In this document: positions 6,164 to 53,358 of the stretch, piece after piece | Layout: each line of letters starts with the position of its first letter | Numbering within the stretch: the first letter of the stretch is position 1 | Assembly: GCF_023276435.1 (NCBI RefSeq) | Contig: NZ_JALLPO010000045.1 | Span: 1 to 64,000 of the forward strand | Source of the DNA: Sphaerisporangium perillae | GTDB taxonomy: Bacteria > Actinomycetota > Actinomycetes > Streptosporangiales > Streptosporangiaceae | Reading direction: 5' to 3' | Length of the DNA stretch: 64,000 bases | Translations under genes and position numbers: made by a program | The notes under the pieces: generated by a model | What the model saw: only the letters and a program-made list of their open reading frames with translations | Database searches by the model: none | What the model was told of the DNA's origin: nothing

Positions 6164-6988
6164 GTGAGCGTGCTCGACGAGATCCTGGACGGCGTGCGAG
6201 CCGACCTCGCCGATCGGCAGCGGGCCGTGTCGCTGGCGGAGCTCAAGGACCGCGCCCAGCGGGCGCCGGCCACCAGGGACGCCTACGCCGCGCTGGGCGG
6301 GGACAAGGTCTCGGTCATCGCCGAGGTCAAGCGGTCCAGCCCTTCCAAGGGCGCCCTGGCGGCGATCGCCGACCCGGCGGCGCTGGCCGGCGACTACGAG
6401 GCGGGCGGCGCGCACGTCATCAGCGTGCTGACCGAGCGGCGCCGGTTCGGCGGCAGCCTCGACGACCTGGCCGCGGTGCGCGCGGCCGTCGACATCCCGG
6501 TCCTGCGCAAGGACTTCGTGGTCACCTCCTACCAGCTCTGGGAGGCGCGGGTCCACGGCGCCGACCTGGCGCTGCTCATCGTGGCCGCCCTTGACCAGAA
6601 CGCCCTCGTCTCGTTGATCGAGAGGGCCGAGTCGATCGGCCTCGCGCCGCTGGTCGAGGTGCATACTGAAGAGGAGCTCGACCGGGCCCTCGAAGCGGGT
6701 GCGAAGATCATCGGCGTGAACGCGCGGAACCTCAAGACCCTGGAGGTCGACCGCGACGTCTTCGCGCGGATCGCGCCCAAGATCCCGGACGGCGTCATCA
6801 AGATCGCCGAGTCCGGCGTGCGCGGCCCGCACGACCTGCTGGCCTACGCCCGCGCCGGAGCCGACGCCGTGCTCGTCGGCGAGAGCCTGGTCACCGGCAA
6901 GGACCCGAGGGCCGCGGTGGTCGACCTGGTCACCGCGGGAGCACACCCCGCATCGCGACTCGACAACGGACCCGAGAGGCAGCAGTGA
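6164..6988 (+). CDS. trpC: Indole-3-glycerol phosphate synthase
   Basis: This TIM-barrel enzyme cyclises CdRP to indole-3-glycerol phosphate in tryptophan synthesis. The 274-residue product has the family landmarks [67 protein letters not shown] and VLVGESLV, which include the catalytic Lys and Glu residues. The GTG start follows a GAGGAG Shine-Dalgarno. Its stop overlaps the GTG of trpB by 4 nt (GTGA), coupling the two. The 202 nt upstream contain no convincing Trp-codon leader peptide that I can identify. Confidence 0.95.
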
Positions 6989-8229
6989 CGATCGCAGAAG
7001 GCTCCCTCATCACCGCCGCCGACCTCGTGGGCGGCGGCGTCGCGGGCGACGACCCCGACGACCGGGGGCGCTTCGGCGTCTTCGGCGGCCGTTTCGTGCC
7101 CGAGGCGCTGATCCCGGCCCTCGACGAGGTCGCCAAGATCTACGCCGAGGCCAAGACCGACCCGGCGTTCATCAGCGAGTTCGACCACCTGCTGCGCACC
7201 TACGCCGGCCGGCCGACGACCATCACCGAGGTCCGCCGGTTCAGCGAGGTGGCGGGGGGCGCCCGCGTCCTGCTCAAGCGCGAGGACCTCACCCACACCG
7301 GCGCCCACAAGATCAACAATGTGCTGGGCCAGGCGCTGCTGACCAAGCGCCTCGGCAAGACCCGCGTCATCGCCGAGACCGGCGCAGGCCAGCACGGCGT
7401 CGCCACCGCGACCGCCTGCGCGCTGCTCGGCCTCGAATGCGTCATCTACATGGGCGAGGTCGACTGCGAGCGCCAGGCGCTCAACGTCGCCCGCATGAAG
7501 CTCCTCGGCGCGAGGGTCGTCCCGGTCGGCAACGGCAGCCGCACCCTCAAGGACGCCATCAACGAGGCCTTCCGCGACTGGGTGACCAACGTCGACACCA
7601 CGCACTACCTGTTCGGCACGGTCGCCGGGCCTCACCCGTTCCCCGAGATCGTCCGCGACTTCGCGCGCATCATCGGCGTCGAGGCCCGCCGCCAGGTCCT
7701 GGAGCTCACAGGCGGCCTGCCCGACGCCGTGGCCGCGGCCGTCGGCGGCGGCTCCAACGCCATCGGCATCTTCCACGCCTTCATCGGCGACGAGGGCGTC
7801 GCGCTCCACGGCTACGAGGCCGCCGGGCACGGCGTGGAGACCGGCGAGCACGCCTGCACCCTCACCGAGGGCTCGATCGGCGTGCTGCACGGCTCCCGCA
7901 CCTATGTCCTGCAGGACGACGAGGGCCAGACCATCGAGTCCCACTCGATCTCGGCGGGCCTGGACTACCCCGGCGTCGGCCCCGAGCACGCCTGGCTGAA
8001 GGACACCGGCCGCGCCACCTACCACGGCATCACCGACGCCGAGGCGATGGAGGCGTTCTCCATCCTGGCGCGCACCGAGGGCATCATCCCGGCCATCGAG
8101 TCGGCGCACGCCCTGGCGGGCACGATGAAGCTCGGCCGCGAGCTCGGCCCGGAGGCGACCATCCTGGTCAACCTCTCCGGGCGCGGCGACAAGGACATGG
8201 GCACCGCCATGAAGTACTTCAACCTGTAG
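6985..8229 (+). CDS. trpB: Tryptophan synthase beta chain
   Basis: This PLP enzyme condenses indole with serine to give tryptophan. The 414-residue protein contains the PLP lysine in [15 protein letters not shown], the catalytic Glu segment [10 protein letters not shown], the phosphate-binding VGGGSNAIG loop and a C-terminal GRGDKDM. About 30 residues precede the conserved [14 protein letters not shown], a slightly longer N-terminus than in enteric TrpB and normal for actinobacteria. The GTG start overlaps the trpC stop. TrpA starts 31 nt downstream of the stop, consistent with the two subunits being made together as an alpha2beta2 complex. Confidence 0.96.
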
Positions 8230-8260
8230 GCCTCAGACCTCTAAAGCGGGACATCCTGAC

Positions 8261-9055
8261 ATGACGACTCTGCAGACGGTGTTCGAGAAGGCACGGGCCG
8301 ACAGGCGCGCCGCGCTCGTCGGATACCTCCCGGCCGGCTTCCCCACCAAGGACGGCGCCATCGCCGCCGCGACCGCCATGGTGGAGGCCGGCTGTGACGT
8401 CATCGAGATCGGCCTGCCCTACTCCGACCCGCTGATGGACGGCCCCACCATCCAGGACGCCGTGCACCGCGCCCTGGTGAACGGCACCCGCATCGCCGAC
8501 GTGATGCGCACCGTCGAGGGAGTGGCCAAGAGCGGCGCGGCCGTGCTGGTCATGACCTACTGGAACCCGATCGACCGCTACGGCGCCGAGCGGTTCGCCC
8601 GCGATCTGGCGAACGCGGGCGGCACCGGCACCATCACCCCCGACCTCACCCCTGAGGAGGCCGGGCCCTGGCGCGAGGTCAGCGCCGCCTCGGGCATCGA
8701 CACCGTCTTCCTGGTCGCGCCGAGCTCCCCGGACGAGCGCATCCAGGCCGTGGCCGAGTGCTGCACCGGTTTCGTCTACGCCGCCTCGCTCATGGGCGTC
8801 ACCGGCGCGCGCACGAGCGTGGGCGCGGCGGCCGAGGGCCTGGTGAAGCGGTGCCGCGCCCAGACCGACCTGCCCGTCTGCGTCGGGCTCGGCGTCGGCA
8901 CGGGCGCGCAGGCCGCCGAGGTCGCGGGGTACGCCGACGGTGTCATCGTCGGCTCGGCGTTCATCCGCCGCCTCCTGGACGCCCCCGACGAGGCCTCCGG
9001 GCTGTCGGCGGTGCGCGAGCTCGCCTCCGAGCTGGCGGCGGGCGTCCGCGCCTGA
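8261..9055 (+). CDS. trpA: Tryptophan synthase alpha chain
   Basis: This TIM-barrel subunit cleaves indole-3-glycerol phosphate and channels indole to TrpB. The 264-residue protein shows the conserved GYLPAGFP, the catalytic Glu in DVIEIGLPYSDPLMDGPTIQ, and the phosphate-binding segments SLMGVTGAR and VGLGVGTGAQAAEVAGYAD. The ATG is the only start that keeps the full N-terminus; its Shine-Dalgarno is weak (GCGGGA). It is the last gene of the trpC-trpB-trpA run. About 100 nt beyond the stop there is an imperfect hairpin (CCTTCGGC...GCCGAAG, about 9192-9211) that could mark the transcript end. Confidence 0.95.
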   Translation: MTTLQTVFEKARADRRAALVGYLPAGFPTKDGAIAAATAMVEAGCDVIEIGLPYSDPLMDGPTIQDAVHRALVNGTRIADVMRTVEGVAKSGAAVLVMTYWNPIDRYGAERFARDLANAGGTGTITPDLTPEEAGPWREVSAASGIDTVFLVAPSSPDERIQAVAECCTGFVYAASLMGVTGARTSVGAAAEGLVKRCRAQTDLPVCVGLGVGTGAQAAEVAGYADGVIVGSAFIRRLLDAPDEASGLSAVRELASELAAGVRA

Positions 9056-9328
9056 CCCCGGTCAAGGGGCCGTTGGTCCCGCCGGAAAGGTCCTCCTGTC
9101 GGTTTCCCGAGGTCACCACACTTTGGCAGTCTTCTTTCGAAGATTGTTTACCGGACGCTTATCGGCCTCATGGTGGGCTGTACTGCCGGTAGCCTTCGGC
9201 GGAAGGCCGAAGTCCGGAGTGAGGTCCGCCGCCCCGGTGACAGGGGCGTCGCGGCTCGACCCTTCCGCGGCACGTTTCGCGGGGACAAAGGAGACGCTGA
9301 TGCTGGTGAGGTCGAGGAGGCCGCGCCG

Positions 9329-9877
9329 ATGAGGTCGCTTTACGCGCATCCGGCGGTACCCTGGGTGACGACCGTCGCCCGGCTGGTGGTCGCGGGCGTG
9401 CTGATCGTGGCCGGCTGGCTGAAGATCGGCACACCGGCGCTGTCGGTCCAGGCAGTGCAGGCCTACGAGCTGCTGCCGGCGCAGGTCGCCACCGCGGTGG
9501 GCTACGGCCTGCCGATCGTCGAGATCGTCGTCGGGGTGTTGCTGGTTGTCGGGTTGCTCACGCGTGCGGCGGGTGTCGTCTCCGCGCTGCTCATGCTGGC
9601 CTTCGTGGTCGGCATCGCGTCGGCGTGGGCGCGCGGCCTGCGCATCGACTGCGGCTGCTTCGGCGGCGGAGGCAAGCTGGCCGCCGGGCAGAGTCCCAGC
9701 TATTTCTGGGAGATCCTCCGGGACGGCGGGCTGTTCCTGCTGGGCGCGTGGATCGTCCGGTTCGCCCCCGGCCGCCTCTCGCTCGACTCCGCTCTGGGCC
9801 TGGTCGCGGCCCCGGCGGCGCACGACGGCGAGGATGGCGGCATCGATGGTGAAGAGCCCGGCATGAGCCCGGCATGA
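9329..9877 (+). CDS. MauE/DoxX-family membrane protein
   Basis: The 182-residue product has four membrane helices (about residues 13-32, 48-72, 75-93 and 123-141) and the MauE-like motif RIDCGCFGGGGK, a Cys-x-Cys facing the outside after helix 3. MauE-type proteins are thought to supply electrons or oxidation to thioredoxin-like partners, and a DsbA-like gene starts 24 nt after this stop. I chose the ATG at 9329 because a GAGGAGG Shine-Dalgarno lies 8 nt upstream; longer in-frame versions begin in sequence without family similarity. The role in disulfide formation is inferred from the pairing. Confidence 0.8.
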   Translation: MRSLYAHPAVPWVTTVARLVVAGVLIVAGWLKIGTPALSVQAVQAYELLPAQVATAVGYGLPIVEIVVGVLLVVGLLTRAAGVVSALLMLAFVVGIASAWARGLRIDCGCFGGGGKLAAGQSPSYFWEILRDGGLFLLGAWIVRFAPGRLSLDSALGLVAAPAAHDGEDGGIDGEEPGMSPA

Positions 9878-9901
9878 GCCAGATATGAAGGAGAGTCTCT
9901 G

Positions 9902-10654
9902 ATGGGAAAGGCCGCGCGGGAGGGTTCCGCCCGCGAGCGCATCAAGGCGCAGCGCGAGCAGGAGCGCCGGCAGCAGCAGCGCAAACGGGTCGTCACCATC
10001 GCCGCGGTGGTCATCGTGGCGATCGCGGTCATCGCGGGCGGCTGGTGGTATGTCCAGTCGGGCAAGTCCGAGACCGCCACCGCGCAGCTCGCCCCGATCA
10101 GCCACCAGGCCGACGGCACCACGGTCATGGCGAAGCCCGGCGTCGAGAAGCCCGTTCTCGACATCTACGAGGACTTCCAGTGCCCGGCGTGCAAGCTGTT
10201 CGAGCAGACCAGCACGCCGACGGTGAAGAACATGGCCGCGGCGGGCCAGGTCAAGGTCGTCTACCACCCGGTCAACATCTTCACCGAGGAGCCCGCCCAC
10301 GGCAACACCGTGCGCGCCTCCGCGGCGGCCCGCTGCGTGACCGACGGCAAGCAGTGGATGGCCTTCCACGACCGGCTCTTCAAGGAGCAGCCCGCAGAGA
10401 CGGCGCAGGGCTTCGCGCTCGATGACCTGGTGAAGTGGGGCAAGGAGGCCGGCGTCACTGATCCGGGCTTCGAGTCCTGCGTGCGGACCCAGAAGTACGC
10501 CCTGACCCAGGCCGACTTCAACAAGAAGGCCACAGACTCCGGGCAGTTCCCCAAGGGCACCCCGACGCTGCGGCTCAACGGCCAGGAGGTCGACAATGGC
10601 GTCGCGTTCAACCCCGCGTCCCTGCGCCAGGCCATCCTTGATGCCGCGAAGTAG
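9902..10654 (+). CDS. DsbA-like thioredoxin-fold protein, membrane anchored
   Basis: This 250-residue protein has a basic cytoplasmic stretch, one N-terminal membrane helix (about residues 30-50) and an extracytoplasmic thioredoxin/DsbA_4 domain. The redox motif CPAC is at residues 94-97 in YEDFQCPACKLF, and the cis-Pro loop is GTPTLRLNG near residue 222. An AAGGAGAG Shine-Dalgarno precedes the ATG. It follows the MauE-like gene by 24 nt and precedes lgt, so the two may form a disulfide-forming pair for exported proteins, as with DsbA-like/VKOR or MauE pairs in other actinobacteria. Direction (oxidase or isomerase) cannot be read from the sequence. Confidence 0.85.
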   Translation: MGKAAREGSARERIKAQREQERRQQQRKRVVTIAAVVIVAIAVIAGGWWYVQSGKSETATAQLAPISHQADGTTVMAKPGVEKPVLDIYEDFQCPACKLFEQTSTPTVKNMAAAGQVKVVYHPVNIFTEEPAHGNTVRASAAARCVTDGKQWMAFHDRLFKEQPAETAQGFALDDLVKWGKEAGVTDPGFESCVRTQKYALTQADFNKKATDSGQFPKGTPTLRLNGQEVDNGVAFNPASLRQAILDAAK

Positions 10655-10680
10655 GCCGGGAACCGGTAACGTCACCTGAC

Positions 10681-11892
10681 ATGCCCCTGGCCTCCATTCC
10701 CAGCCCGCCAGAAGGGGTCTGGTACCTCGGACCGATCCCTCTGCGGGCCTACGCTTTCTGCATCGTGCTCGGCGTCGTCGTCGCCGTCTGGATCGGCGAG
10801 CGCCGCTGGCGCGCCCGAGGCGGCGAGCCCGGCACGATCACCGATCTCGCCGTCTGGGCCGTTCCGTTCGGCCTGGTCGGCGGGCGGCTGTACCACGTCA
10901 TCACCGACTGGCAGCTGTACTTCGCGCCTGACGCCCCGAACCGGCCGATCGACGCCCTGTTCATCTGGCACGGCGGTCTCGGCATCTGGGGAGCCGTGGC
11001 GCTCGGCGGCGTCGGAGTGTGGATCGCCTGCCGCAGGCGCGGCATCTCCCTGTCGGCGGTGGCCGACACCGTGGCACCCGGCATCGCGGTGGCGCAGGCC
11101 ATCGGCCGCTGGGGCAACTACTTCAACCAGGAGTTGTTCGGCGGGCCGACCAGCCTGCCGTGGGGGCTGGAGATCGACCCGGGCCGTCCCGGCACGATCC
11201 CGGGCGAGGCGACCTACCACCCCACGTTCCTGTACGAGTCGCTGTGGGACCTCGCCTTGGCCGGCGTCCTGGTGTGGGCGGGCAGGCGTTACGGGCTGCG
11301 TCACGCCCGGCTGTTCGCGCTCTACGTCGCGGGCTACACGATCGGCCGCTTCTGGATCGAGGGCATGCGGGTCGATCCGGCCCACCACATCCTCGGCCTG
11401 CGGCTGAACCAGTGGACCTCCATCGTGATCCTCCTCGGCGCCCTGGCCTACTTCTGGCTGACCAGGAACAAGACCACCGAGGAGATCGTGGTCCCGGCGC
11501 GCGGTGACGCCCTCGACCCGGCGCACGACGCGGGCCAGGCCGACGAGCACGAACTCGCCGAGGCCGCGGCCGCGAACGCCTCCGCCGGGGATTCGCCCGA
11601 GCCGGGCGCCGCCGCGGAGGATTCACCGGGCGACGACGCGCCGGCCGCGAAGACCGGACCGGATGCCGGTGAGGCTGCTGTGGAGGCAGAGCCGGATGCC
11701 GGTGAGGCTGCCGTGAAGGCAGAGCCGGCCACCGCCTCGGCGGACGCGGACGACACCGCCGACCGGTCCCACCCGGCGAGCCAGGCCGACCCGCACGAGA
11801 GTGCCGGCGTCTCGGACGAGAAGGCCACTGCCCCCGGCGCGAGCGACGCGGCGGCTCCGGCGGCAGCGGACTCGGAGGCGAATTCGCGATGA
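10681..11892 (+). CDS. lgt: Prolipoprotein diacylglyceryl transferase with long acidic tail
   Basis: Lgt transfers diacylglycerol from phosphatidylglycerol to the lipobox cysteine of prolipoproteins at the membrane. The catalytic core spans about residues 1-265 with seven membrane segments, the Lgt signature in GRWGNYFNQELFGGP, and HPTFLYES. The remaining 135 residues are an Ala/Glu/Asp/Pro-rich cytoplasmic tail, unnecessary in short Lgt proteins but common in actinobacteria; it contains a 33-bp tandem duplication. A TAACGT hexamer ends 8 nt before the ATG, so translation may be leaderless. It serves the several lipoproteins encoded in this window. Confidence 0.94.
   Translation: MPLASIPSPPEGVWYLGPIPLRAYAFCIVLGVVVAVWIGERRWRARGGEPGTITDLAVWAVPFGLVGGRLYHVITDWQLYFAPDAPNRPIDALFIWHGGLGIWGAVALGGVGVWIACRRRGISLSAVADTVAPGIAVAQAIGRWGNYFNQELFGGPTSLPWGLEIDPGRPGTIPGEATYHPTFLYESLWDLALAGVLVWAGRRYGLRHARLFALYVAGYTIGRFWIEGMRVDPAHHILGLRLNQWTSIVILLGALAYFWLTRNKTTEEIVVPARGDALDPAHDAGQADEHELAEAAAANASAGDSPEPGAAAEDSPGDDAPAAKTGPDAGEAAVEAEPDAGEAAVKAEPATASADADDTADRSHPASQADPHESAGVSDEKATAPGASDAAAPAAADSEANSR
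11662..11727 (+). repeat. 33-bp tandem duplication in lgt tail
   Basis: Two adjacent 33-bp units (11662-11694 and 11695-11727) differ by only a few bases and encode 11-residue Ala/Glu-rich repeats in frame. The unit length is a multiple of three, so copy number can vary without a frameshift. Confidence 0.85.
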
Positions 11893-11977
11893 CCCAGGGC
11901 GGCTCCTCGGGGGGGCGCGCCGAGATCGGCTTCGGGCGCCATGAGCCGGTCGACGGGCTTCTGGGGTCCGGCGGCCT

Positions 11978-12793
11978 GTGAGCGCGCGCGGTGGCAGCAA
12001 GCGGCGACGGTCGTCGTTCGAAGTCGGGGCCCTGTCCGAGCGGGGCCTGTCCCAGCGGCAGCAGCGCGTCCTGTTCGGCGTGGGCACGGTGCTGGCGGTG
12101 CTGCTCGGCGGTTTCGGGCTGACCGCCATAGTGAGCACCCTCGGCGTCTCCGGCCCGCCCGCCGATCAGGGCACGCCCGCCGACGCGATCGGGCTGCCCC
12201 GTCCGGCCGACTACCAGGCGTGGCCGTCGCCCAAGCTCTTCGCCCCGATCGGCGACCGCAAGGCGGACAAGACCCCGTTGCGAGCCGAGGAGGTCTTCTC
12301 CGTGAAGAACCTCAAGAGCGGCAAGCTGACGCTCAGGCTGGCCGCCCGCCGCCTGGACGGCGCCTGCGCGCCCGCCGTGTGGGGCGGCAGCGTGCTGGCC
12401 AAGCTGGGGGAGACGGGCTGCACCCAGGCCGTGCGGGGCCTGTACCTCAGCGCCGACCGCCGGTACGTCGCCCAGTACACCCTGTTCAACATGGCGGACG
12501 CCGCCTCGGCCGAGGGGTTCGTGCAGCAGATGTCGACCCTCTACCGAGGGGGAGGGTGGGTGCGGGTGCTGGAGTCGAAGATCGCGGCGTTCCCCGCCGA
12601 CGGCTACAGCGAGGCCAGTGGCCACGCCATGGGGCACTACGCGGGGTTCGTGTGGGTCGGGCGGCTCGACGGCCAGGAGGCGACGGCGAAGGACGACTTC
12701 GTCTCGCTCGCTCTGAGCGCCCGGGCCGCGGAGAAGCCGATCTACCGTCGTATCGTCGCGGTCACCGGGCCCGCGGCACCCCCGGCCGGGTAG
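11978..12793 (+). CDS. Membrane-anchored protein of unknown function, paralogue 1
   Basis: I do not recognise a named family. The 271-residue product has an Arg/Lys-rich cytoplasmic start, one membrane helix (about residues 30-55) and a roughly 210-residue exterior domain. It shares with the next gene a two-cysteine pattern (CAPAVWG then GCTQAVRGLY, 17 residues between cysteines), a (A/Q)Q-Y segment YVAQYTLFNMADAASAEGF, and a late GFVWVG. The GTG start directly begins a basic N-terminus. Position after the MauE/DsbA-like/lgt genes suggests an exported protein with a disulfide bond. Function is unknown. Confidence 0.7.
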   Translation: MSARGGSKRRRSSFEVGALSERGLSQRQQRVLFGVGTVLAVLLGGFGLTAIVSTLGVSGPPADQGTPADAIGLPRPADYQAWPSPKLFAPIGDRKADKTPLRAEEVFSVKNLKSGKLTLRLAARRLDGACAPAVWGGSVLAKLGETGCTQAVRGLYLSADRRYVAQYTLFNMADAASAEGFVQQMSTLYRGGGWVRVLESKIAAFPADGYSEASGHAMGHYAGFVWVGRLDGQEATAKDDFVSLALSARAAEKPIYRRIVAVTGPAAPPAG

Positions 12794-42659: not shown

Positions 42660-43268
42660 ATGGTGAAGGTCGGGCTGACGGGTGGCATCGGATCGGGCAA
42701 GAGCGAGGTGTCGCGGCGGCTCTCCGACCGGGGCGCGGTGGTCATCGACGCCGACAAGATCGCCCGTGAGGTAGTGGAGCCGGGCACGAGCGGCCTCGCG
42801 CTCATCGTGGAGGCGTTCGGCCCGGGAGTGCTGCGCGAGGACGGCACGCTGAACCGCGAGAAGCTCGGGCAGATCGTGTTCGCCGATCAGGAGAAGCTCG
42901 CGCGCCTCAACGCGATCGTGCACCCCCGGGTCGGGGAGCGCGTCGGTGAGCTGCAGCGCGCGGCCCCCGACGACGCCATCGTCGTGTACGACGTGCCGCT
43001 GCTCGCCGAGAACGGGCTGGCCTCGATGTACGACCTGGTCATCGTGGTCGACGCCTCCGACGGGACGCGCCTTGACCGCCTCACCCGGCTGCGCGGCATG
43101 GCCGAGGAGGACGCCGTCGCCCGCATCAAGGCCCAGGCGACCAGGGAGGACCGGCTGAAGATCGCCGACATCGTCATCGAGAACGAGGGCGCCCTCGACG
43201 ATCTCGACGCGCGGGTCCCCGAGGTCTGGGCGGAGATCCAGAAGCGACGCGACACCGCGGTCGCCTGA
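42660..43268 (+). CDS. coaE: Dephospho-CoA kinase
   Basis: CoaE phosphorylates dephospho-CoA in the final step of coenzyme A synthesis. The 202-residue protein begins with the P-loop [17 protein letters not shown], then [41 protein letters not shown] and the lid [15 protein letters not shown]. The length is right for a CoaE without the GrpB-like fusion found in mycobacteria. A TACGCT hexamer 7 nt before the ATG suggests a leaderless transcript. It is the last housekeeping gene before the accessory block, and a short-unit tandem-repeat array begins about 14 nt past its stop. Confidence 0.94.
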
Positions 43269-43281
43269 CCCTGGGTCGGCC

Positions 43282-43455
43282 GACCCCGTGCCGACCCCGT
43301 GCCGACCGGCCGACCCCGTGCCGACCCCGTGCCGACCGGCCGACCCCGTGCCGACCGGCCGACCCCGTGCCGACCGGCCGACCCCGTGCCGACCGGCCGA
43401 CCCCGTGCCGACCGGCCGACCCCGTGCCGACCGGCCGACCCCGTGCCGACCGGCC
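43282..43455. repeat. Short-unit tandem repeat array (11/19/30-bp units)
   Basis: Ten copies of GACCCCGTGCC are interspersed with copies of GACCGGCC. The first units are double (11+11+8 bp, period 30), and the last six have period 19 (11+8). Copies are nearly identical, which suggests recent expansion by slippage. It lies between the coaE stop and the 3' end of the minus-strand receptor gene; a reading frame through it is only Pro/Arg/Ala repeats and is not a gene. Confidence 0.9.
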
Positions 43456-43525
43456 GGCCGCGGTGACGGCCGGCCGCCGCGCGTGAGCCGGGGACGGCCA
43501 GGCCCGCCTGGCCGGGATGGCCGGG

Positions 43526-46500
43526 TCAGAACGGTGCGTCCAGTGCGATCTGCCGCACCCCGGGCAGGTACGGGTCCAACTCGCCCGGGTCGAACCGGCA
43601 CATCCCGATGACGTACCAGAACTGCCCCGTGACGTCCCCCTCCGTCTTGTACCGGCCGTCCGGGCTGAGCGCCGCCCAGCCCTCGGCCAGCCCGAGCAGC
43701 GTGGCCCGCTGGAGCGGAACGTCTCCGGTGAGGTCCCAGAGGATCACCACGCCGTCGTCCCCCGCGCTGGCGAGCAGGTCGCCCGAGGGAGAGAACGCCA
43801 CCGACCAGACGCGGCGGGTGTGACCGACGAGCGTGTGCAGGTGGCGCCCCGACGCGGTGTCCCACAGCCGCACGACCAGGTCGTCCCCGCCTGTGGCGAG
43901 CCGGGTGCCGTCCGGGCTGAAGTCCACCGTCCAGAGCCGCCCGGTGTGCCGTCTCAGCGTGTGCAGCGGGCCGGCCGACCAGGGCGCGCCGCCGGCGTCG
44001 AGCCGCCAGACGCGGGCGGTGCCGTCGTTGCCCGCGCTGGCCAGCAGCTTTCCGGTGGGATCGAACCGTACGGCGTAGACCCGGTCGGAATGGCCTTCGA
44101 GAGCGGCCAGCCGCCTGCCGGAGTGCACGTCCCATAGTCTCACCACGCGGTCGTCGCATCCGGTGGCGACGGTGGCGCCGTCCGGGCTGAACGCGATCGA
44201 GCGCACGCGCCCGCGGTGCTCGGCGAGGTTGCCGACCTCCCTGCCCGAGGTGCGGTACCACAGGCGGACGCTGTCGTCGTCGTTGGCCGTCGCGAGGATC
44301 TCGCCGTCCGGGCTGAACGCCTCGGCCCAGACGTGGTCGGTCTCGACGTTGAGCTCGCGCTCGAAGGTGCCCGCCGCGATGTTCCACAGGTAGACGCCGC
44401 CGTCGTTGCTCGCGGTGGCGAGCACGGGCCCGGCAGGGCTGAAGATCGCGGAGATGAGCCGGTCGGCGGCGCCGGTCAGCTCGCGCAGCCGCCGCCCCGT
44501 GCGCGGGTCCCACAGCCGGACGTATCCGTCGTTGCCGCAGGTGGCCAGCATGGTGCCGTCCGCGCTGAACCGCACGGCGGTGATGCGGCGCCCGTGGCCG
44601 CGCAGCGTCTGGCGGCACTGGCCGCTCTCGGGGTCCCACAGCCGGGCGGTGCCGTCGTTGCTGGCGGTCGCGAGCTGCCGGCCGTCCGGGCGGAAGGCGA
44701 AGGGCCACACTGACCCGCGGTGGCCGGCCAGCTCGGCGCGCTGGCGGCCGGTGTCCGGCTCCCACATGCGCACCACGCCGTCGCTGTCTCCGGTGGCGAG
44801 CGTGTCGCCGCCGGGACTGAAGAGCACCTGGTACACCGCGCCGGAGTGGCCCTGGAGCGCGCCCAGCGGCCCTCCGGTGCGCGGGTCCCACAGCCGGACG
44901 GCACCGGAGGTGTCACCGGAGGCCAGGAGCCCTCCGGACGGATGGAAGTCCAGGGCGTAGACCCGGCCGGTGTGGCCTCGCAGGTCGTGGAGCCGCGCGC
45001 CGGTGGCGGGGTCCCAGATCTTGACGGCCCCGGTGTGGTCGCCGGCGGCGAGCATGCGGCCGTCCGGGCTGAGCGCCAGGCGGTAGACCGTGCCCTGGTG
45101 ACCGGTCAGCGAGTGGCTGAGCCGGCCGGTGGCGAGGTCCCACACGCGGATGGCGCCCCCCGCGTCGCCGGTCACCAGCCTGCCGGGCAGGAAGACGGCG
45201 GTGTAGATCGGGGAGGTGTGACCGGGCAGCGAGGCCACCGGCTCGCCGGTGGCGGCCGACCAGACGTGCATCACGCCGTCGGCGCCGCCCGCGGCCACCA
45301 GGTCGCCGGACGGGCTCAGTACGACCGGCCAGACCCCGTCGGCGTGCCCGGTGAGGACGTGGCGCGCGGCGCCCGTGGAGGGGTCCCAGATGCGCACGGT
45401 GCCGTCCGCGGCGCCGGTGACGAGCACCCCCGGCCCGTAGGCCACCTTGTACACCCGCCCGCGGTGGCCGTGCAGGGTGCGCAGCGGTGATCCGCTGACG
45501 CTGTCGCACACCAGCACCCCGCCGTCCTCGCTGCCCAGGGCGAGCAGGCCGCCGTCGGGACTGTAGGCGACCGGTTCCGGCAGGCGGCTGCTCTGGAAGT
45601 GGTAGCCGTACGGCACGCCGACGAGCGGGGGAGCCAGCTCGGGCGTCACGGGATGGCCCGGCGCGATGGCGGCGCCGCGCAGGGCGGGATCGGCCGCCAG
45701 CGACGCGGAGGCGGTGACGTCGATCAGCGCCGCGCGGTCCCAGCGGCTCTCCTCGGTGGCGATGTCGCGCAGATCGGCTCGGGGGAGCCGGGCGCGGGTC
45801 AGGTCGGCGCCGCGCAGGTCGGCCCCCGCGAGGACGGCCTGGTCCAGCCGGGCGCCGTTGAGGCGGGCGTCACGCAGGATCGCGCGGGTCAGGTTCGTGC
45901 CGACGAGCTGGGCGTCGGTCAGGTCGGCGCCGGTGAGGTCGACGCCCGCGAAGTCGCGGTACGAGAGGTCCTCGCCGTGCAGCCGGGCGCCGCGCAGGTC
46001 GGTCCTGGCGGGTGTGCGCAGCCTCGTTGTGATCTTTATGGCGTTAGCGCGGGCGGTGTCGTCGGCCGCGGGGTCGGCGAGCGTCCGGCCCGCCCACGCC
46101 TGGAGCCGGCCGGTGTCGGCCAGGTCGCACAGGAAGTCGACGATCAGCGCCGACAGCGGGCGCTGCGCGAGCTGCTCGCCGAGGGTCCGCGCGATGTGGC
46201 AGGCGACCAGCCACTCCATCACCGAGGAATGGATGAAGCCGAAGAGCCCCTCGTCGGTGCGGACGAGCAGGCTGCCGGTGCCCATCGCGTGAGCGGTCTG
46301 GCCGACCGACAGGCGGCTGTCGGCCAGCTCGGCGAGCGTCTCGGCCGCCTCGGTCAGCTCGGCCGGCTGGAGGTAGGATTCGCCGTTCTCCCACAGGCGC
46401 AGCGCCAGCGTCGTCGCCGCCCGCCGCAGCTCCTCGGCGGTCAGCTCTCCGGGCGCTCCGGGCACGTGCGTGCGCCGCTCCTCGAACAGCAGCCAGTTGT

Positions 46501-49354
46501 CGAGGATCTCGGAGTACAGGCCGGCCGCGCTGATGGCGTCACCCGCGCGCGCCACCGCGCGCAGCCGCTCGTCGGGCAGGTCGGCGATGAAGCTCAGCAT
46601 GCGGGGGTTCTGCGCGAGGCCGAGCAGGTCGGAGATGCCGGTGAGCAGGCTCATCCGGTCGTCGGCGGCCCGCGCGTCCCCGCCGTAGCGGTTCGCGAGG
46701 TACGCGCGCACCTGGGCGGGGGTGAACTCCTCCACGCTCAGCACCCGCCGGTGCGGCAGCGTGCCGACCCGCTCGCCGAGCGCGGTCAGCACCTGGGCGT
46801 GCGACTTGAAGTGCTGGGTGCGGCTGGCCACCACGACCTTGGCCTTGTCCTCGGCGGCCTGCAGGAGCGTGTCGAGGTGGTCGGCCGCGCGCTCGTAGGT
46901 GACCCGGGTGACCAGCTCGTCGAACCCGTCGAACAGCAGGACGATGCGGCCCTGCCGGAGCATGTAGTGGAAGGCCTTGAGGTCGATCAGCTCCTCACCG
47001 TGGTTGGCCAGATGCGCCGCCACCAGCCCGTCGACCGAATGCGCCTTGTCCAGGGCCCGCAGCTCGATGAGGATCGGGGTCAGATGGGGTAGCTCGGCCG
47101 GGATCCTGCGCGCGATCTCCCGCAGGGCGAACGTCTTGCCGCGGCCGAAGTCGCCGAGCAGCAGCACGAACCGGCCGTGGTCCGCGGCCAGCAGCCGCAT
47201 CAGCTCGCCGGTGAGGTCGTCGCGCACGCCCTGGCCGGCGCGGTCCACCTCGCGGTAGCGCTGCGGGACGTACAGGTCGGGCGGGTAGCGCCGGTCGCTC
47301 AGGAGCCGCGCCGTCTGGTCGGCGACGTGGTCGGACAGGTCGAGCAGCCCCTGGAACTCGGTGAAGCTGCGCAGCCGCACGCCGCGCCGCAGGGCGTCGT
47401 CGCGGACGAGCCGTGACGGGGTGGGCCCCTGGTACACCAGCTCCGAGCCGTGTTCCAGACCGGCCGCGTGGACCTGCCGCAGGAAGGCCGACACGTCGTC
47501 GGTGGTGAGCGGGCCCGAGTGCGCGCCGATGAGCTGCTGGCGGACGAACCCGTCTTCGGCGAGGGTCACCAGCAGGTGCGGCGGATCGCCCGGCACCTTG
47601 CGGATCTTGGCCCGGTCGCTGCGGGTCTCGCACACCTCGGCGACGCGGTCGAGCAGCAGGCTCGACGGGCTCGCCTGCCGTTCGGGCTCGCCGCCGGTGT
47701 CCGGCGGGGCCTCCAGGGGGTTGCGCTCGGCCTGCTCGACGGCGCTCGCCGGGGGGAACGTGCCGTGCACGGAGCGCCGGTCGTACGGGATCTCCTCGGG
47801 CGGGAGGATCTCCTCGCGGTCGCGCGCCCAGCGGCGGATGCCGGCGGGGGTGATCTCGATGATCTGGTGGCGCCCGGGCGCGAGGGACGGCACGCAGGGC
47901 AGGTCGCCGATCCAGCCGATCTCGTCGGGGCCGCCGCCGTGCAGCAGCAGGTTGAGCCGCGTGCCGAGCAGCCTTTCGAGCGCGCCCCGGTCGCGCAGGG
48001 CCGAGGGGGGATGGCCGACGGCCCCGACGCGCAGCCACCCCGTCTCCTCGAAGGGCCGCAGGCGCTCGGCGAACCAGGCGGCCTGGGCCTGCCCGATCTG
48101 GCCGTAGGCGTCCTCCTCGCGGTGGCTGATGGCCATGGTCGAGTTGAGCCCGGCCATGACGACCTTCAGCTCGGGCTCGGCGAACAGGCTCCAGGGCTGC
48201 GCGCTGTCGAACTCCGGGTCGCTCAGCCCCTGGTAGACGTCCTTGAACAGGCCCGAGAAGTGCCGCCATTTCGGCCAGTAGGGCGGCTCCGGGGCCACGT
48301 CGTCGGCCTCGCAGGTGGCGAAGTAGGCGCGGCTGGCGGCCTTGGTGACGTCGCGGGGGCCGGGCACGATCACGAGCCTGCGCTGCTCGAGGCCGAGGAG
48401 CACGCGGAGCCCGGTCAGGAACGCGAGCGCCTCGCCGTACTCGCGGATGCTGCCGGACTCGGTGATGTCGCCGGTGACCAGCAGCAGGTCGGGGCGGGGC
48501 GCCCCGGCGTCGGCCAGGCGGGTCAGGTCGGCCCACACGCTCGACTGGAGCTCGCCGGCGCCGAGCGGCTCGTCCGCCTCGGCGAGCCCGCGCCCGAAGC
48601 GGGGCCCGGAGACGTGCAGCACGGTGACCGAGGAGCGTTCCCCCTGCAGGGAGCCGGTCGCGGGGAACGCGGGCGGCGCCACGGGCGTCCTGCGCCGGGG
48701 CGCGACGCGCGGCGACTCGGCGCCCAGAGACGGGACTCGCGCGTCCGCGTCCGGGTAAGAGAAGCGCTCCGGAGTGCCCTGCCCCGGGAACGAGGTGATC
48801 TCGTGCGGGCCGCCGGGGTGGCCCGGACGCGTGCCGCCCGCCTCCCGGACCAGGGTGCCGGGGATGGTCTTGGCGGGGGCGGTCGGGAAGCCCGGCTGCT
48901 CGGCGGGCTTGGCCCGGCCCGACAGCGTGTGCTGGATGCGGCCGAGCAGCAGGGACCTGGCCTCCTTCGGGTCGCTCACGCCGACCAGGTCCACCCACGT
49001 GATCGTCGAGAGCAGCCCTTCGAGCGGGCACTCCTCGATGCGGATCGTCACCAGCCGGTTGCCGGGATTGTCGGGGTCGGCGCGGAAAGCGGTCAGCCAC
49101 TCCTGCCGCCCGAAGCGGGACCCGAGGTAGTTCCTGGACAGGATCGCGACGATCAGCTTGGCCTCGCTGACCCCTCGGTCCATGAAGTCGATGAAGTTGG
49201 TGCCCGGCACGAAGTCCCAGGCCTGGAGCATGGTGCGGTATCCGGCGGCCTCGAGCTGCCAGGCGATCCAGCCGGCCCAGCGCTCGTCCGCGGGGGAGTA
49301 GCTGACGAAGATGTCCACGCGCGCGCCGTTGCCACCGTCCATGCGGACTCCCAT
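43526..49354 (-). CDS. TIR - degenerate phosphoesterase - NACHT - pentapeptide - WD40 receptor
   Basis: This 1942-residue protein reads as an NLR-like receptor. In order it has: a TIR domain (about 12-145, IFVSYSPADERWAGWIAWQL) keeping a likely catalytic Glu85 in RQEW; a Pro-rich linker; a calcineurin-like phosphoesterase fold (about 242-505) whose metal motifs are lost; a region (565-695) vaguely like an Mrr-type nuclease fold; a NACHT/STAND NTPase with Walker A GDFGRGKT (734-741) and Walker B RIVLLFDGFDEL (803-814); pentapeptide repeats (about 1118-1200); and 14-15 WD40 blades (about 1260-1880). The GTG/ATG choice is minor: a second ATG four codons in has a better Shine-Dalgarno (GGGAG). 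A plausible job is that WD40/pentapeptide sensing releases TIR NAD+ cleavage; that is inference. Confidence 0.88.
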   Translation of the reverse strand: MGVRMDGGNGARVDIFVSYSPADERWAGWIAWQLEAAGYRTMLQAWDFVPGTNFIDFMDRGVSEAKLIVAILSRNYLGSRFGRQEWLTAFRADPDNPGNRLVTIRIEECPLEGLLSTITWVDLVGVSDPKEARSLLLGRIQHTLSGRAKPAEQPGFPTAPAKTIPGTLVREAGGTRPGHPGGPHEITSFPGQGTPERFSYPDADARVPSLGAESPRVAPRRRTPVAPPAFPATGSLQGERSSVTVLHVSGPRFGRGLAEADEPLGAGELQSSVWADLTRLADAGAPRPDLLLVTGDITESGSIREYGEALAFLTGLRVLLGLEQRRLVIVPGPRDVTKAASRAYFATCEADDVAPEPPYWPKWRHFSGLFKDVYQGLSDPEFDSAQPWSLFAEPELKVVMAGLNSTMAISHREEDAYGQIGQAQAAWFAERLRPFEETGWLRVGAVGHPPSALRDRGALERLLGTRLNLLLHGGGPDEIGWIGDLPCVPSLAPGRHQIIEITPAGIRRWARDREEILPPEEIPYDRRSVHGTFPPASAVEQAERNPLEAPPDTGGEPERQASPSSLLLDRVAEVCETRSDRAKIRKVPGDPPHLLVTLAEDGFVRQQLIGAHSGPLTTDDVSAFLRQVHAAGLEHGSELVYQGPTPSRLVRDDALRRGVRLRSFTEFQGLLDLSDHVADQTARLLSDRRYPPDLYVPQRYREVDRAGQGVRDDLTGELMRLLAADHGRFVLLLGDFGRGKTFALREIARRIPAELPHLTPILIELRALDKAHSVDGLVAAHLANHGEELIDLKAFHYMLRQGRIVLLFDGFDELVTRVTYERAADHLDTLLQAAEDKAKVVVASRTQHFKSHAQVLTALGERVGTLPHRRVLSVEEFTPAQVRAYLANRYGGDARAADDRMSLLTGISDLLGLAQNPRMLSFIADLPDERLRAVARAGDAISAAGLYSEILDNWLLFEERRTHVPGAPGELTAEELRRAATTLALRLWENGESYLQPAELTEAAETLAELADSRLSVGQTAHAMGTGSLLVRTDEGLFGFIHSSVMEWLVACHIARTLGEQLAQRPLSALIVDFLCDLADTGRLQAWAGRTLADPAADDTARANAIKITTRLRTPARTDLRGARLHGEDLSYRDFAGVDLTGADLTDAQLVGTNLTRAILRDARLNGARLDQAVLAGADLRGADLTRARLPRADLRDIATEESRWDRAALIDVTASASLAADPALRGAAIAPGHPVTPELAPPLVGVPYGYHFQSSRLPEPVAYSPDGGLLALGSEDGGVLVCDSVSGSPLRTLHGHRGRVYKVAYGPGVLVTGAADGTVRIWDPSTGAARHVLTGHADGVWPVVLSPSGDLVAAGGADGVMHVWSAATGEPVASLPGHTSPIYTAVFLPGRLVTGDAGGAIRVWDLATGRLSHSLTGHQGTVYRLALSPDGRMLAAGDHTGAVKIWDPATGARLHDLRGHTGRVYALDFHPSGGLLASGDTSGAVRLWDPRTGGPLGALQGHSGAVYQVLFSPGGDTLATGDSDGVVRMWEPDTGRQRAELAGHRGSVWPFAFRPDGRQLATASNDGTARLWDPESGQCRQTLRGHGRRITAVRFSADGTMLATCGNDGYVRLWDPRTGRRLRELTGAADRLISAIFSPAGPVLATASNDGGVYLWNIAAGTFERELNVETDHVWAEAFSPDGEILATANDDDSVRLWYRTSGREVGNLAEHRGRVRSIAFSPDGATVATGCDDRVVRLWDVHSGRRLAALEGHSDRVYAVRFDPTGKLLASAGNDGTARVWRLDAGGAPWSAGPLHTLRRHTGRLWTVDFSPDGTRLATGGDDLVVRLWDTASGRHLHTLVGHTRRVWSVAFSPSGDLLASAGDDGVVILWDLTGDVPLQRATLLGLAEGWAALSPDGRYKTEGDVTGQFWYVIGMCRFDPGELDPYLPGVRQIALDAPF

Positions 49355-49523
49355 CCCTCGCCTGCCCCAACCCGGCGTGACCGTCCTGCCCGGCCCCTCC
49401 TTCGCCCTCTGCCCGTGCTCCTCCGCGAGCGCGACGCCGCGCCGTGCCGCCCGGCCGGAGGGCCATTATCACCCGTGGCGCCGGGGCTTTCGAGGGATTT
49501 CGATCTCGCGCGGGTGTGCGATC

Positions 49524-50714
49524 ATGACGTACGTGATACGGCGGCTGGCGGTGCTGGACTGGGTCCGGCTCGGGGTGCTCGCCGTGGGGCTGGCGTGTGT
49601 GGCGACCGGGTTGCTCCCGGCCGCGGAGGCCGTCGCCAACGTCCGCCGCATCGGGCCGCTGCTGCTCTTCCTCGCGGCGGTGATCGTGCTGGCCGAGCTG
49701 ACCAAGGAGGCGGACGTCTTCGACGTCCTCGCCGGCCGGTTGGCGATCATCGGGCGCGGCAACTACGCCGCACTTTTCGTGCTCTGTACGGCTTTCGCGT
49801 CATTTGTCACGATATTTCTGAACCTGGATACCACCGCGGTGCTGCTGACGCCGGTCATGCTGGCCCTGGCGCCCCGCGCGCGCATCGCGTCCCTGCCCCT
49901 CGCGATGACCACGATCTGGCTCGCCAACACCGCGAGCCTCCTGCTGCCGGTCTCCAACCTGACCAACCTGCTGGCCATGGACCGGGTCGGGCTGTCCACG
50001 CACGACTTCGCCGCCCGCATGTGGGCCCCCCAGGTCGCCTCGATCGCCGTGACCATGCTGTTCCTGTGGATCTTCTACTGGCGGCGTGGAGAGCGGGGAG
50101 AGGACAGATACCAGCCGCCACCGCCGGTGCCCGTGGGCGACCGCGTGCTGTTCACCGTCGCGGGGAGCGCCTGCCTGCTGTTCATCGCCGCCATCCTCGC
50201 GGGCGCCCAGATCGGCGTCGCGGCCGCCGTCGCCGCCGTCCTGGTGATCGCGGCCTTCGCCTGGCGCGACCGGTCGAAGCTCACCTGGGGGCTGTTCCCC
50301 TGGCAGCTCCTGGTCTTCGTCACCGGGCTGTTCCTCGTGGTGCCGACCCTCAGCCGGTACGGGCTCGACGACCTGATGCGCGCGCTCGTCGGCGTCGCGG
50401 GCGACACCGCCGGCGACTACCGTGCCGCCGCGGCCGGGGCCGGGCTGTCCAACATCGTCAACAACCTGCCCGCCTACTACGCCGGGGAGCGGGTGATCCC
50501 CCCGGCCGGCCACGACCAGCTGCTCTCGCTGCTCATCGGCACGAACGTCGGCCCGGTGATCACGCCGTGGGGCTCGCTGGCCACCCTGCTGTGGTTCGAG
50601 TGGTGCCGCCGCCGCGCCGTGAAGGTGCCGATGGTGAAGTTCGTGCTCACCGGGGTCTGCCTGTGCGTCGTCGGCATCGCCGCCACGGTCACCGCGCTGC
50701 TGCTCACCAGGTAG
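49524..50714 (+). CDS. ArsB/SLC13-type membrane transporter
   Basis: The 396-residue product has about ten membrane helices and the ion-transporter-superfamily landmarks LNLDTTAVLLTPVMLALAPR, ASLLLPVSNLTNLL, AGAGLSNIVNNLPAYYAGE and IGTNVGPVITPWGSLATLLW, the second inverted repeat of which matches ArsB-like arsenite pumps closely. Other members move sodium or carboxylates, so the substrate is not certain; no arsenate reductase or ArsR is nearby. It is divergent from the TIR-NACHT-WD40 gene, with about 180 nt between starts, and its 3' end overlaps the IMPase gene by 11 nt, tail to tail. Confidence 0.82.
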   Translation: MTYVIRRLAVLDWVRLGVLAVGLACVATGLLPAAEAVANVRRIGPLLLFLAAVIVLAELTKEADVFDVLAGRLAIIGRGNYAALFVLCTAFASFVTIFLNLDTTAVLLTPVMLALAPRARIASLPLAMTTIWLANTASLLLPVSNLTNLLAMDRVGLSTHDFAARMWAPQVASIAVTMLFLWIFYWRRGERGEDRYQPPPPVPVGDRVLFTVAGSACLLFIAAILAGAQIGVAAAVAAVLVIAAFAWRDRSKLTWGLFPWQLLVFVTGLFLVVPTLSRYGLDDLMRALVGVAGDTAGDYRAAAAGAGLSNIVNNLPAYYAGERVIPPAGHDQLLSLLIGTNVGPVITPWGSLATLLWFEWCRRRAVKVPMVKFVLTGVCLCVVGIAATVTALLLTR

Positions 50715-51522: not shown

Positions 51523-52173
51523 CTAGATTCGCGCCAGGTGCTCCGCGGCCAGCCGGGCGGCCCGCGCGGTCTCCTCATCGTCGCAGTGCCTGCGGACCAC
51601 GCGGTGGGAGCGCGTGCCGACCGGGCCCAGGGAGAGATCGGCCGTGCCCTTCCGCCCGCTGCCCAGCGCGATGGTGGCCGTGTCGGTGCCTTCGGGGATC
51701 ACGCTGCGGTGGAACACCCCGGCGCGCAGCGTGTACACCTGGCCGGCGCCGTAGACCGCCGACGCGCCCGGGGTGTAGGTGACGATGCGGCCCGTGGGCC
51801 TGATGCTGTCCACATCGCCCTCGCTGACCACCTCGAACACCTGGTGCGTCGCTCGAGCGCCGCTGTCGGCCACGGCGGCGAGCTCGTTGCGCACCTGGCC
51901 GTAGAGGACGTAGCTGATCAGGTCCCAGCTGTGGCAGTGGATCTCGGAGGTGGTGGTGGCGACGCTCGGCAGGTCGGCCGACCACAGGTGCACGCAGACG
52001 CCGTGCTCGCCGCTGCGTTCCACCGGCAGGCAGACGAAGCCGAGCGGGTGGCGGACCGCCGTGATCGCGAATGCGCCCGCGGCGATGTCCCGGAGCAGCC
52101 GCAGCGCCCGGCGGGGGAGCGCGCGCGAGACCGGGCCCGATGTCAGCTCGTCGTACAGCTCCTGGTACTTCAT
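51523..52173 (-). CDS. Cupin-like metal-binding protein of unknown function
   Basis: The 216-residue product is unrecognised as a named family. Its middle looks like a cupin/RmlC fold: EIHCHSWDLISYVLYGQV supplies a His-x-His pair, and YTLRAGVFHRS supplies the second-motif histidine. This is a typical metal-site layout for small-molecule dioxygenases, isomerases or ligand-binding cupins. The ATG overlaps the stop of the upstream 2-TM gene (ATGA), so the two are translationally coupled, and the IMPase gene follows at 10 nt. A role in modifying or sensing a small molecule is plausible but unproven. Confidence 0.65.
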   Translation of the reverse strand: MKYQELYDELTSGPVSRALPRRALRLLRDIAAGAFAITAVRHPLGFVCLPVERSGEHGVCVHLWSADLPSVATTTSEIHCHSWDLISYVLYGQVRNELAAVADSGARATHQVFEVVSEGDVDSIRPTGRIVTYTPGASAVYGAGQVYTLRAGVFHRSVIPEGTDTATIALGSGRKGTADLSLGPVGTRSHRVVRRHCDDEETARAARLAAEHLARI

Positions 52174-53207
52174 GCCGAGTAAGGGTTCTTGGCGCGGATG
52201 GCCTTGCGGATGATCTCGACCACGTCGCGGTCGCCGTAGGACTTCGGCAGGCCGAGCCCGAGCGTCTCGAACAGCTTGCGGACCTCGTCGACCGTGGGCT
52301 CGTCGCCGACCTGTGTCGCCTTGGACGCCTCGATGGGCACCCGCCGCGCCTGGTCCAGGCTGGAGATCAGCTCGGTGGCGCAGTGGTCGTAGTAGAAGCT
52401 GCCGCGCCGGGTCATCAGGGCGCGGTTGGGGTCCTCGACCGTGATGATCACGTGCTGGGCCGACAGGTCCCAGCGGAACGTCGTCATCGTCGACGACAGC
52501 CCGAGGTGGATGTCGAGCAGGCTGAACCGCTGGCGGTACCAGCAGGCCGCGAGGATCGTGGCGTAGGACTCCTTGCGGGTGCGGTCGACCGTCCAGTACT
52601 CCCCGGTGCCGTCGGGGGCGTCGGACACCGAGCGGCGGAAGCGCACGTACGCCTCGCAGACGCCGATGTGGGTCGGGTCGATGATCTCCAGCCGCATGAG
52701 CATTGCCTTGCGCTCCCGGCGGGCGGCGACGACCAGCTCCGGCAGCGTCACCGCGCGCACGTAGGTGCCCGTGCCGCCCTTGAAGTACCAGCGGTCGGTG
52801 GACCGCCGCGCCTCGGTGAGGGCCTCCGCGATCTCGTCCGCCCCGTTCAGCACCTGGACGACCTGCAGGTCGTCGAGCACGCGCCGGGCGCTCTCGACGA
52901 CCGACTCCAGACGGGTGAGGCGGTCGAGGCGCAGGGGGAGGTCGGCCAGCGCTCCGGAGGTGGTGCGGAAGTTCTCCTTGATCGTCTCCTCCATGGGCTC
53001 CTGCCGCCACCGGTCGCGCAGGATCGCCGCGGTCAGGAGGCCGAGCACCAGGAGGGTCACCCCGCTGATCAGCTCGCTCTTCGGCTGGCCCATGATCTGG
53101 TCGCTCGCGGTCAGGCCGAGGAAGGCGATGAAGACGGCCAGCACGAGGGCGATGACGCCGTCGGCGTTCTTGCCGACCCAAGCAACGAACTTGCCCATGC
53201 GCTCCAT
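52170..53207 (-). CDS. Two-TM protein with large uncharacterised cytoplasmic domain
   Basis: The product of about 345 residues has two N-terminal membrane helices (about residues 17-35 and 48-65 of the ATG 53207 form), a short amphipathic/coiled segment, then a roughly 250-residue domain I do not recognise (landmarks [40 protein letters not shown] and [14 protein letters not shown]). I prefer ATG 53207; upstream starts add Pro/Arg-rich sequence. It begins a translationally coupled three-gene operon with the cupin-like and IMPase genes. Two-helix membrane proteins with a large soluble domain are common effectors or sensors in conflict systems, but this link is speculative. Confidence 0.6.
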
Positions 53208-53358
53208 GGCGCCCGCCCCGCCTCGACGATCAGTAAGCCCCGTGGTCATGGTAACGACAGGGTCAAGTACCGGCCAGTGGCGGCTCACGGAGCCCGGATC
53301 GCGACCGGCCGGCCTCCGGCACCGGAAATGTCGGTGGCTCCGCGTAGGTTATGGAGAC

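Follow-up and report, generated by a model that had tools for sequence, protein, structure and literature searches.

A TIR-NACHT-WD40 receptor gene of Sphaerisporangium perillae with a retained, catalytically dead phosphoesterase and a putative history of effector replacement

In this soil actinomycete, one gene in the window, by which we mean the whole 64,000-nucleotide stretch of DNA that was analyzed, probably encodes a very large NLR-like receptor. The protein would be one chain that works inside the cell, of a type found in filamentous actinomycetes. We place the likelihood of this reading, including the action and the effector-swap history outlined below, at about 0.6. In known NLRs, WD40 repeats sense, NACHT domains assemble in an NTP-driven manner, and TIR domains are activated by proximity and consume NAD+. 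By analogy, a conserved ligand would dock on the WD40 propellers of the receptor, the NACHT switch would exchange nucleotide and presumably drive the assembly of a ring, and the TIR heads would meet and either use up NAD+ or derive a signal from it, resulting in a growth stop or cell death. The NADase activity, the trigger and any role against phage are putative. With regard to its history, an ancestor-like form would have had an active phosphoesterase head, and three surviving cousins of this kind adjoin a SLATT_2 membrane effector. A TIR domain would then have been added ahead of the phosphoesterase (cousins with both survive), after which the phosphoesterase would have lost its metal ligands and stayed on in folded form, as a spacer or as a regulatory module. 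In the clade that contains the window copy, the gene would have settled beside an ArsB/CitMHS-type permease, where it would have been inherited since and to which it may be functionally tied.

Architecture of the receptor

The receptor gene occupies 43526..49354 on the reverse strand as one open frame of 1942 amino acids. The likelier start is the fifth codon, a Met at 49342 that gives a protein of 1938 residues; GGGAG is found five bases upstream, and the orthologues in G004 and G008 begin at the matching Met. An earlier sequence-only reading had proposed that six parts follow one another in this long gene, and the order TIR, calcineurin-like phosphoesterase (MPE), inactive restriction endonuclease fold (iREase), NACHT, pentapeptide and WD40 was borne out by Pfam, run region by region on the receptor protein, by the fold evidence for the MPE given below, and by the single 1942-residue frame. 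The effector thus stands at the N-terminus and the repeat sensor at the C-terminus. All of the following features lie on the reverse strand. The TIR domain (residues 13-138; 48941..49318) was recognized by Pfam TIR_2 (3.8e-33, residues 15-133) and by Foldseek, and its catalytic Glu85 (codon 49100-49102) is kept, as had been claimed. It is followed by the dead MPE (residues 240-515; 47810..48637) and the NACHT-associated iREase (residues 566-690; 47285..47659), which between TIR and NACHT could set spacing or contacts in an assembled ring. The NACHT NTPase with its following helical/winged region (residues 715-1100; 46055..47212; Pfam NACHT 3.2e-11) contains intact Walker A (GDFGRGKT, residues 734-741; 47132-47155) and Walker B (LLFDGFDE, residues 806-813; 46916-46939) motifs, again in agreement with the first reading. 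The pentapeptide repeats (residues 1116-1215; 45710..46009; Pfam Pentapeptide 1.2e-21) precede the WD40 sensor (residues 1262-1895; 43670..45571), for which Pfam recognized 14 stretches and in which 15 evenly spaced WD signatures were counted (residues 1283-1873), matching the 14-15 blades first proposed. A conserved tail (residues 1896-1942; 43529..43669), delimited by orthologue ends and alignment, completes the protein.

The middle of the protein had been described as a degenerate phosphoesterase next to an Mrr-like fold, with structure prediction suggested as a check. An AlphaFold2 model of residues 10-695, built from 27 aligned sequences (pLDDT 73.3, pTM 0.49), contained a phosphoesterase fold. 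Its closest solved counterpart by Foldseek was Rv0805 (1.7e-11), which we take to be a cyclic-nucleotide phosphodiesterase and from which the window copy differs in having lost most metal ligands. The same model matched the TIR domains of SPARTA, MyD88 and SARM1 at about 1e-5 to 1e-4. Sequence profiles gave Rv0805 at 1.6e-9, MyD88 at 4.2e-5, 5irl (a chain listed as an uncharacterized protein, which we take to be NOD2) at 1.2e-6 and NLRP3 at 0.007. For the MPE segment of the window (residues 236-560), both Pfam Metallophos (0.022) and the NCBIfam antiphage phosphoesterase DS9_1 (2.2e-11) stayed under their cut-offs, and the same segment in three relatives exceeded that of Pfam (4.9e-15, 5.6e-12 and 1.4e-14). 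The neighboring fold was matched by NA-iREase3 (PF22739; residues 566-673) at 5.5e-41, with 140.3 bits against a curated cut-off of 27. No solved structure matched this part in profile searches or among the 50 Foldseek matches listed, and the iREase assignment therefore rests on Pfam; judging by the name of the family, its curators already know the iREase-NACHT core.

The WD region was modeled with a pLDDT of 68.5 and a pTM of 0.52 and matched 2ymu (5.1e-38) and APAF-1 (3j2t, 3.4e-27; also 3shf). A division of this part of the protein into a pair of closed rings at a stated point was dropped, since a model of this quality leaves the split unfixed. PADLOC returned seven weak matches to the receptor, the best being bSEFIR (1.8e-8) over the TIR domain only, and none of its defence models was mostly covered.

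Catalytic residues and a proposed effector replacement

We collected 142 reading frames and, after 12 identical ones were dropped, compared 130 distinct copies, 125 of which have an MPE. The NTPase is highly conserved: Asp809 and Glu813 of Walker B are present in all 130 copies, and Lys740 of Walker A in 129, with one gap. The catalytic-column Glu is found in 111 of the 114 TIR copies; the TIR domains of L229 and L239 do not have it in the aligned column, which counts against the main explanation. The metal-ligand positions of the MPE vary in a graded way across the family. All seven are kept in eight copies, five in one copy, and three or fewer in the remaining 116, the window copy having two. 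Five of the copies with an intact MPE have no TIR (L068, L069, L070, L185 and L272) and three do (L230, L232 and L271). In one TIR-less copy (L068, from G012) a Trypsin_2 domain (Pfam 2.1e-14) precedes the intact MPE-iREase-NACHT part, and in L238-L240 a TIR is present and the MPE is absent altogether. Among the first 28 family rows, every row with a TIR had lost its MPE motifs, and L068, L069 and L070, which are without a TIR, had kept them. The rule suggested by these rows, that a TIR implies a dead MPE, was broken by L230, L232 and L271.

The iREase tells a different story. No (D/E)xK motif was found in its fold in the 21 aligned relatives. The sequence-only reading had regarded both folds as former enzymes; both are indeed inactive in the window protein, but their histories differ. 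Judged by these motifs, the iREase is inactive across the whole family, whereas the MPE lost its activity at a later time and on more than one occasion. A single protein thus contains dead enzymes of two kinds, one inactive family-wide and one inactivated later.

A tree of 51 chosen rows places these changes. The window clade (26 rows; TIR and dead MPE) forms one group (100/100), and its sister is the intact, TIR-less pair L069 and L185 (94/93). A second group with a dead MPE (L233, L274 and L275) is nested within an intact clade (100/100 and 95/86). The dead forms of the MPE go back to intact forms on two occasions or more, as seven exact residues are unlikely to have been regained. The order of TIR gain and MPE loss is less firmly placed: parsimony requires six changes of MPE state and three of TIR and cannot by itself fix their order, and the 2-3 independent pairs in which TIR and MPE changed are too few (the sign test was not significant). 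A further point against the main explanation is that nine dead-MPE copies have no TIR detected by HMM. In one of these (L273) unknown bases lie upstream, and among the other eight, six start at a contig end, L173 has a TIR in another frame, and L234 has a divergent TIR_2 according to Pfam. Taken with the surviving forms, the sequences make it seem that the TIR took over as effector and that the older phosphoesterase head lost its active site yet stayed as part of the protein. Intact, intermediate and dead forms would then show an immune receptor changing its killing head with the old head kept, a step that for NLRs is usually just inferred.

Purifying selection on the dead MPE is about as strong as that on the NACHT domain. 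For the window copy against three congeners, dN/dS was 0.21, 0.17 and 0.24 for the MPE, 0.20, 0.19 and 0.21 for NACHT, and 0.23, 0.17 and 0.23 for WD40, with values of 0.11-0.13 for the TIR and 0.49-0.80 for two linkers. In pairs that exclude the window copy the linkers gave 0.33-0.57, falling to 0.04-0.07 between the closely similar copies L073 and L074, and coaE of the same genomes gave 0.24-0.34. Because it is under purifying selection and has intact cousins, the MPE is a retained module. This supports in part the earlier proposal that former enzymes serve as structural or ligand-reading modules; any reading of a ligand by the MPE would be a further, putative function. One such function would be that the dead MPE still binds a nucleotide, possibly the product of the TIR domain itself, and tunes activation. 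The strength of selection, equal to that on NACHT, would fit this idea, as would the motif His (residue 448), which is invariant in 27 of 27 aligned rows, with intact and dead MPE alike; however, most of the six remaining ligand residues have disappeared from the window clade and structure explains the conservation equally well, and we consider nucleotide binding distinctly unlikely.

Inheritance of the locus and the neighboring permease

The receptor gene lies at a fixed locus. One flank consists of polA, rpsA, a GNAT gene and coaE, and the other of the ArsB/CitMHS-type permease, an inositol-monophosphatase-family gene, a protein with a weak Holin-X match, and uvrB; the names polA, rpsA, coaE and uvrB are those that we presume for these neighbors. 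The gene for dephospho-CoA kinase, coaE (42660..43268, forward strand), was assigned as the fixed neighbor on one side by synteny. It was found near the receptor in 66 of 80 named loci and 21 of 24 family loci, two sets that overlap in species. Pairwise distances of NACHT track those of coaE (Mantel r 0.83, n 77) and of the permease (r 0.91, n 85), none of 999 permutations reaching either value, and with a mean distance of 0.26 vs 0.29 the receptor has diverged no further than coaE. Within the genus, coaE adjoins the permease, and no receptor lies between them, in G002, G005, G006 and G007, and in G010 coaE adjoins uvrB. In G009 a decayed remnant with short MPE and iREase pieces (L182, 7326-7679) lies between the permease and coaE. 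Synteny, co-inheritance and empty sites together indicate that the receptor gene is old at this site and dispensable. The receptor does not behave like a mobile defence gene, a reading that was set aside in view of the fixed synteny and the co-inheritance; four neighbors of the receptor also gave no PADLOC match.

In the same genus, 8 of 11 genomes matched a longer N-terminal query, five of them with full-length orthologues. With an MPE-iREase query, 25 of 100 family genomes matched, 22 with the window type (54% or more) and three with a TIR-less type. Matches were found in 36 of 121 genomes of the order sample, which overlaps the genus and family samples, and, with an alignment query, in 14 of 197 of the class sample. 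A scan of genome contigs, of which the best 80 of 389 relatives (all with E 0) were used, returned Nonomuraea, Actinomadura, Microbispora, Streptosporangium and others, along with Micromonospora, Plantactinospora, Amycolatopsis and MAGs. One plasmid record covers at least 80% of the query (L009, NZ_LT559118.1), and this is an 11.85-Mb Nonomuraea gerenzanensis replicon filed as a plasmid. A gene constant in all relatives and with a housekeeping role had been named as the outcome that would speak against a receptor; the window-type gene is in fact absent from 78 of the 100 family genomes, and empty sites occur.

These data bear on what the receptor is for. Receptors that act against phage do not usually have a fixed locus and a slowly evolving sensor, and both features weigh against the main explanation. 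They could instead point to a receptor that triggers cell death in the development or stress response of mycelial actinomycetes and has no part in immunity, a reading also in keeping with the co-inheritance, the housekeeping neighbors and the absence of PADLOC matches in four of them. On the other hand, the gene is dispensable, being missing from those 78 family genomes and lost within the genus, and its cousins resemble conflict systems in their SLATT_2 genes and homogenized repeats; we judge this non-immune reading fairly unlikely.

On the other side of the receptor lies the divergent ArsB/CitMHS-type permease (49524..50714, forward strand; start assigned by eye), whose longer frame (49311-50714) matched Pfam CitMHS at 5.8e-35 and ArsB at 2.5e-24. 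The permease may be a partner of the receptor or a protein that it guards. A permease of the window type and the receptor stand head-to-head in 77 of 80 named loci, with the remaining three starting at a contig end, and in 23 of 24 family loci. The pairing persists in six loci from other actinomycetes or MAGs where the fetched stretch has no coaE (L168, L171, L173, L174, L175 and L226). All six window-clade loci of family f19 (L227, L228 and L281-L284) have a permease of a different subfamily, 31-34% identical, directly downstream, and Pfam CitMHS and ArsB were both found in the two loci tested. No permease match was found at 28 loci with receptors outside the window clade, six of which are under 10 kb. 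A close permease without a receptor occurs in 7 of 20 hand-picked receptor-less genomes. Only one uncut window-clade locus lacks the permease (L056, from G048, whose best permease relative is 26% identical), and its TIR N-terminus lies in another frame (11973-12234).

All of these observations would fit a model in which the receptor watches the permease, or a membrane state that it reports, and fires its TIR domain in response to an attack on the permease or a disturbance of it. Several points temper this idea. Synteny kept from an ancestor could by itself account for the window-type arrangement. It hardly accounts for the downstream one, but this is confined to one clade and so amounts to one evolutionary event, and L056 is a single case and possibly a sequencing error. 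We regard guarding as possible, if on the unlikely side. The locus provides a bacterial example of an NLR linked, at an unchanging site, to a single conserved membrane protein, and thereby a setting in soil bacteria where guarding can be put to the test. The same pairing could also mean that the permease is the membrane output of the receptor, gated by the TIR product, much as other TIR systems use separate effectors; the phosphoesterase cousins have another membrane effector gene, SLATT_2, and on this view the permease would have replaced it. Against such an output role, the permease persists alone in some genomes, like a transporter with its own job, and Pfam recognized no ligand-binding domain in it; we consider this version improbable. 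A broader guard account, in which a TIR-NLR exchanged its phosphoesterase effector for another, retained the inactive enzyme inside the chain, became a long-lived, vertically inherited sentinel of the permease and decays once the permease is lost, strikes us as unlikely.

Several smaller features of the locus were recorded. Between coaE and the receptor stop (43277-43476) lies a GC-rich tandem array of a 19-bp unit repeated 10.3 times, CGGCCGACCCCGTGCCGAC. The Holin-X-like protein has 372 residues (52170-53288, reverse strand; 5.5e-5, below the cut-off), and near the inositol-phosphatase gene is an unannotated reverse-strand frame (about 51523-52173) that we take to be cupin-like. Both are kept around the receptor in many loci, and neither matched PADLOC or NCBIfam. 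The L226 copy, which groups with the Micromonospora and Plantactinospora copies, lies in family f39, so that equating f19 with Micromonosporaceae is unsupported. One genome has a second, partial match (64%) in addition to a full receptor (G159:C2:186561-187028).

The sensor, the TIR-less cousins and related systems

The C-terminal part after NACHT is 820-849 residues long in 86 of 89 copies. Blade-to-blade identity at a lag of 42, compared in copies other than L230, L232, L271 and L272, lies at 0.24-0.38, with a median of 0.315, in 93 copies of the window clade and at 0.72-0.79 in the three SLATT-linked cousins (L069, L070 and L185). Homogenized blades together with a TIR occur as exceptions in L274 and L275 (dead MPE, 0.63-0.70) and L239 (0.59). 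These three copies, and L068 with an active MPE at 0.42, break a rule that equates homogenized blades with an active MPE. Draft short-read assemblies may collapse homogenized repeats, as is described for fungal NLRs (PMC12222747). The SLATT_2 gene is directly downstream on the same strand in L069 and L185 and divergently upstream in L070; it was identified by Pfam in L069 and L070 and by tblastn and HMM in L185. None was found at the other 141 of 144 loci scanned, TIR receptors included, several of these loci being short contigs. SLATT genes beside phosphoesterase or TIR effectors are described elsewhere, with a predicted pore-forming role, by Kaur et al. (2020; PMC7159879).

Taken singly, the domains are already known, and so are the overall layout of the receptor and bacterial NLRs with a TIR. 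The domain order, which the sequence-only reading did not recall as described, was found in none of the open-licence PMC papers searched, nor were the effector replacement and the permease pairing. With APAF-1 the receptor shares a STAND switch and a long WD40 sensor, its WD region matching full-length APAF-1 (3j2t, 3shf), whereas APAF-1 has a CARD and an AP-ATPase domain. The bacterial NLR-related anti-phage (bNACHT) proteins, as described in PMC12169576, similarly combine an N-terminal effector, a central NACHT and a C-terminal sensor. Their effectors are PD-(D/E)xK nucleases or unrecognized, with NCH1 or SNaCT parts, whereas the window receptor has a TIR, a dead MPE and an iREase ahead of NACHT and a pentapeptide and WD40 sensor; the two are likened by layout only. 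STAND NTPases in the conflict systems of multicellular bacteria have interchangeable TIR or calcineurin effectors, a STAND switch and inactive enzymes, and in GAP1-N1 systems phosphoesterase or TIR effectors are accompanied by SLATT genes (PMC7159879 and PMC8195603). In contrast, the window receptor stacks two effector heads in one chain, one of them dead, with cousins that represent intact intermediates. The fungal HNWD NLRs het-d and het-e also join NACHT to WD40 repeats, modeled as a double propeller (PMC12222747). Three TIR-less cousins (L069, L070 and L185) share homogenized blades with HNWD proteins, whereas the window clade has diverged blades in nearly fixed number. In one of these cousins (L070, from G006, 6225-12198) the receptor is split into two genes, one for MPE-iREase-NACHT and one for the pentapeptide and WD40 repeats, and the WD blades are near-identical.
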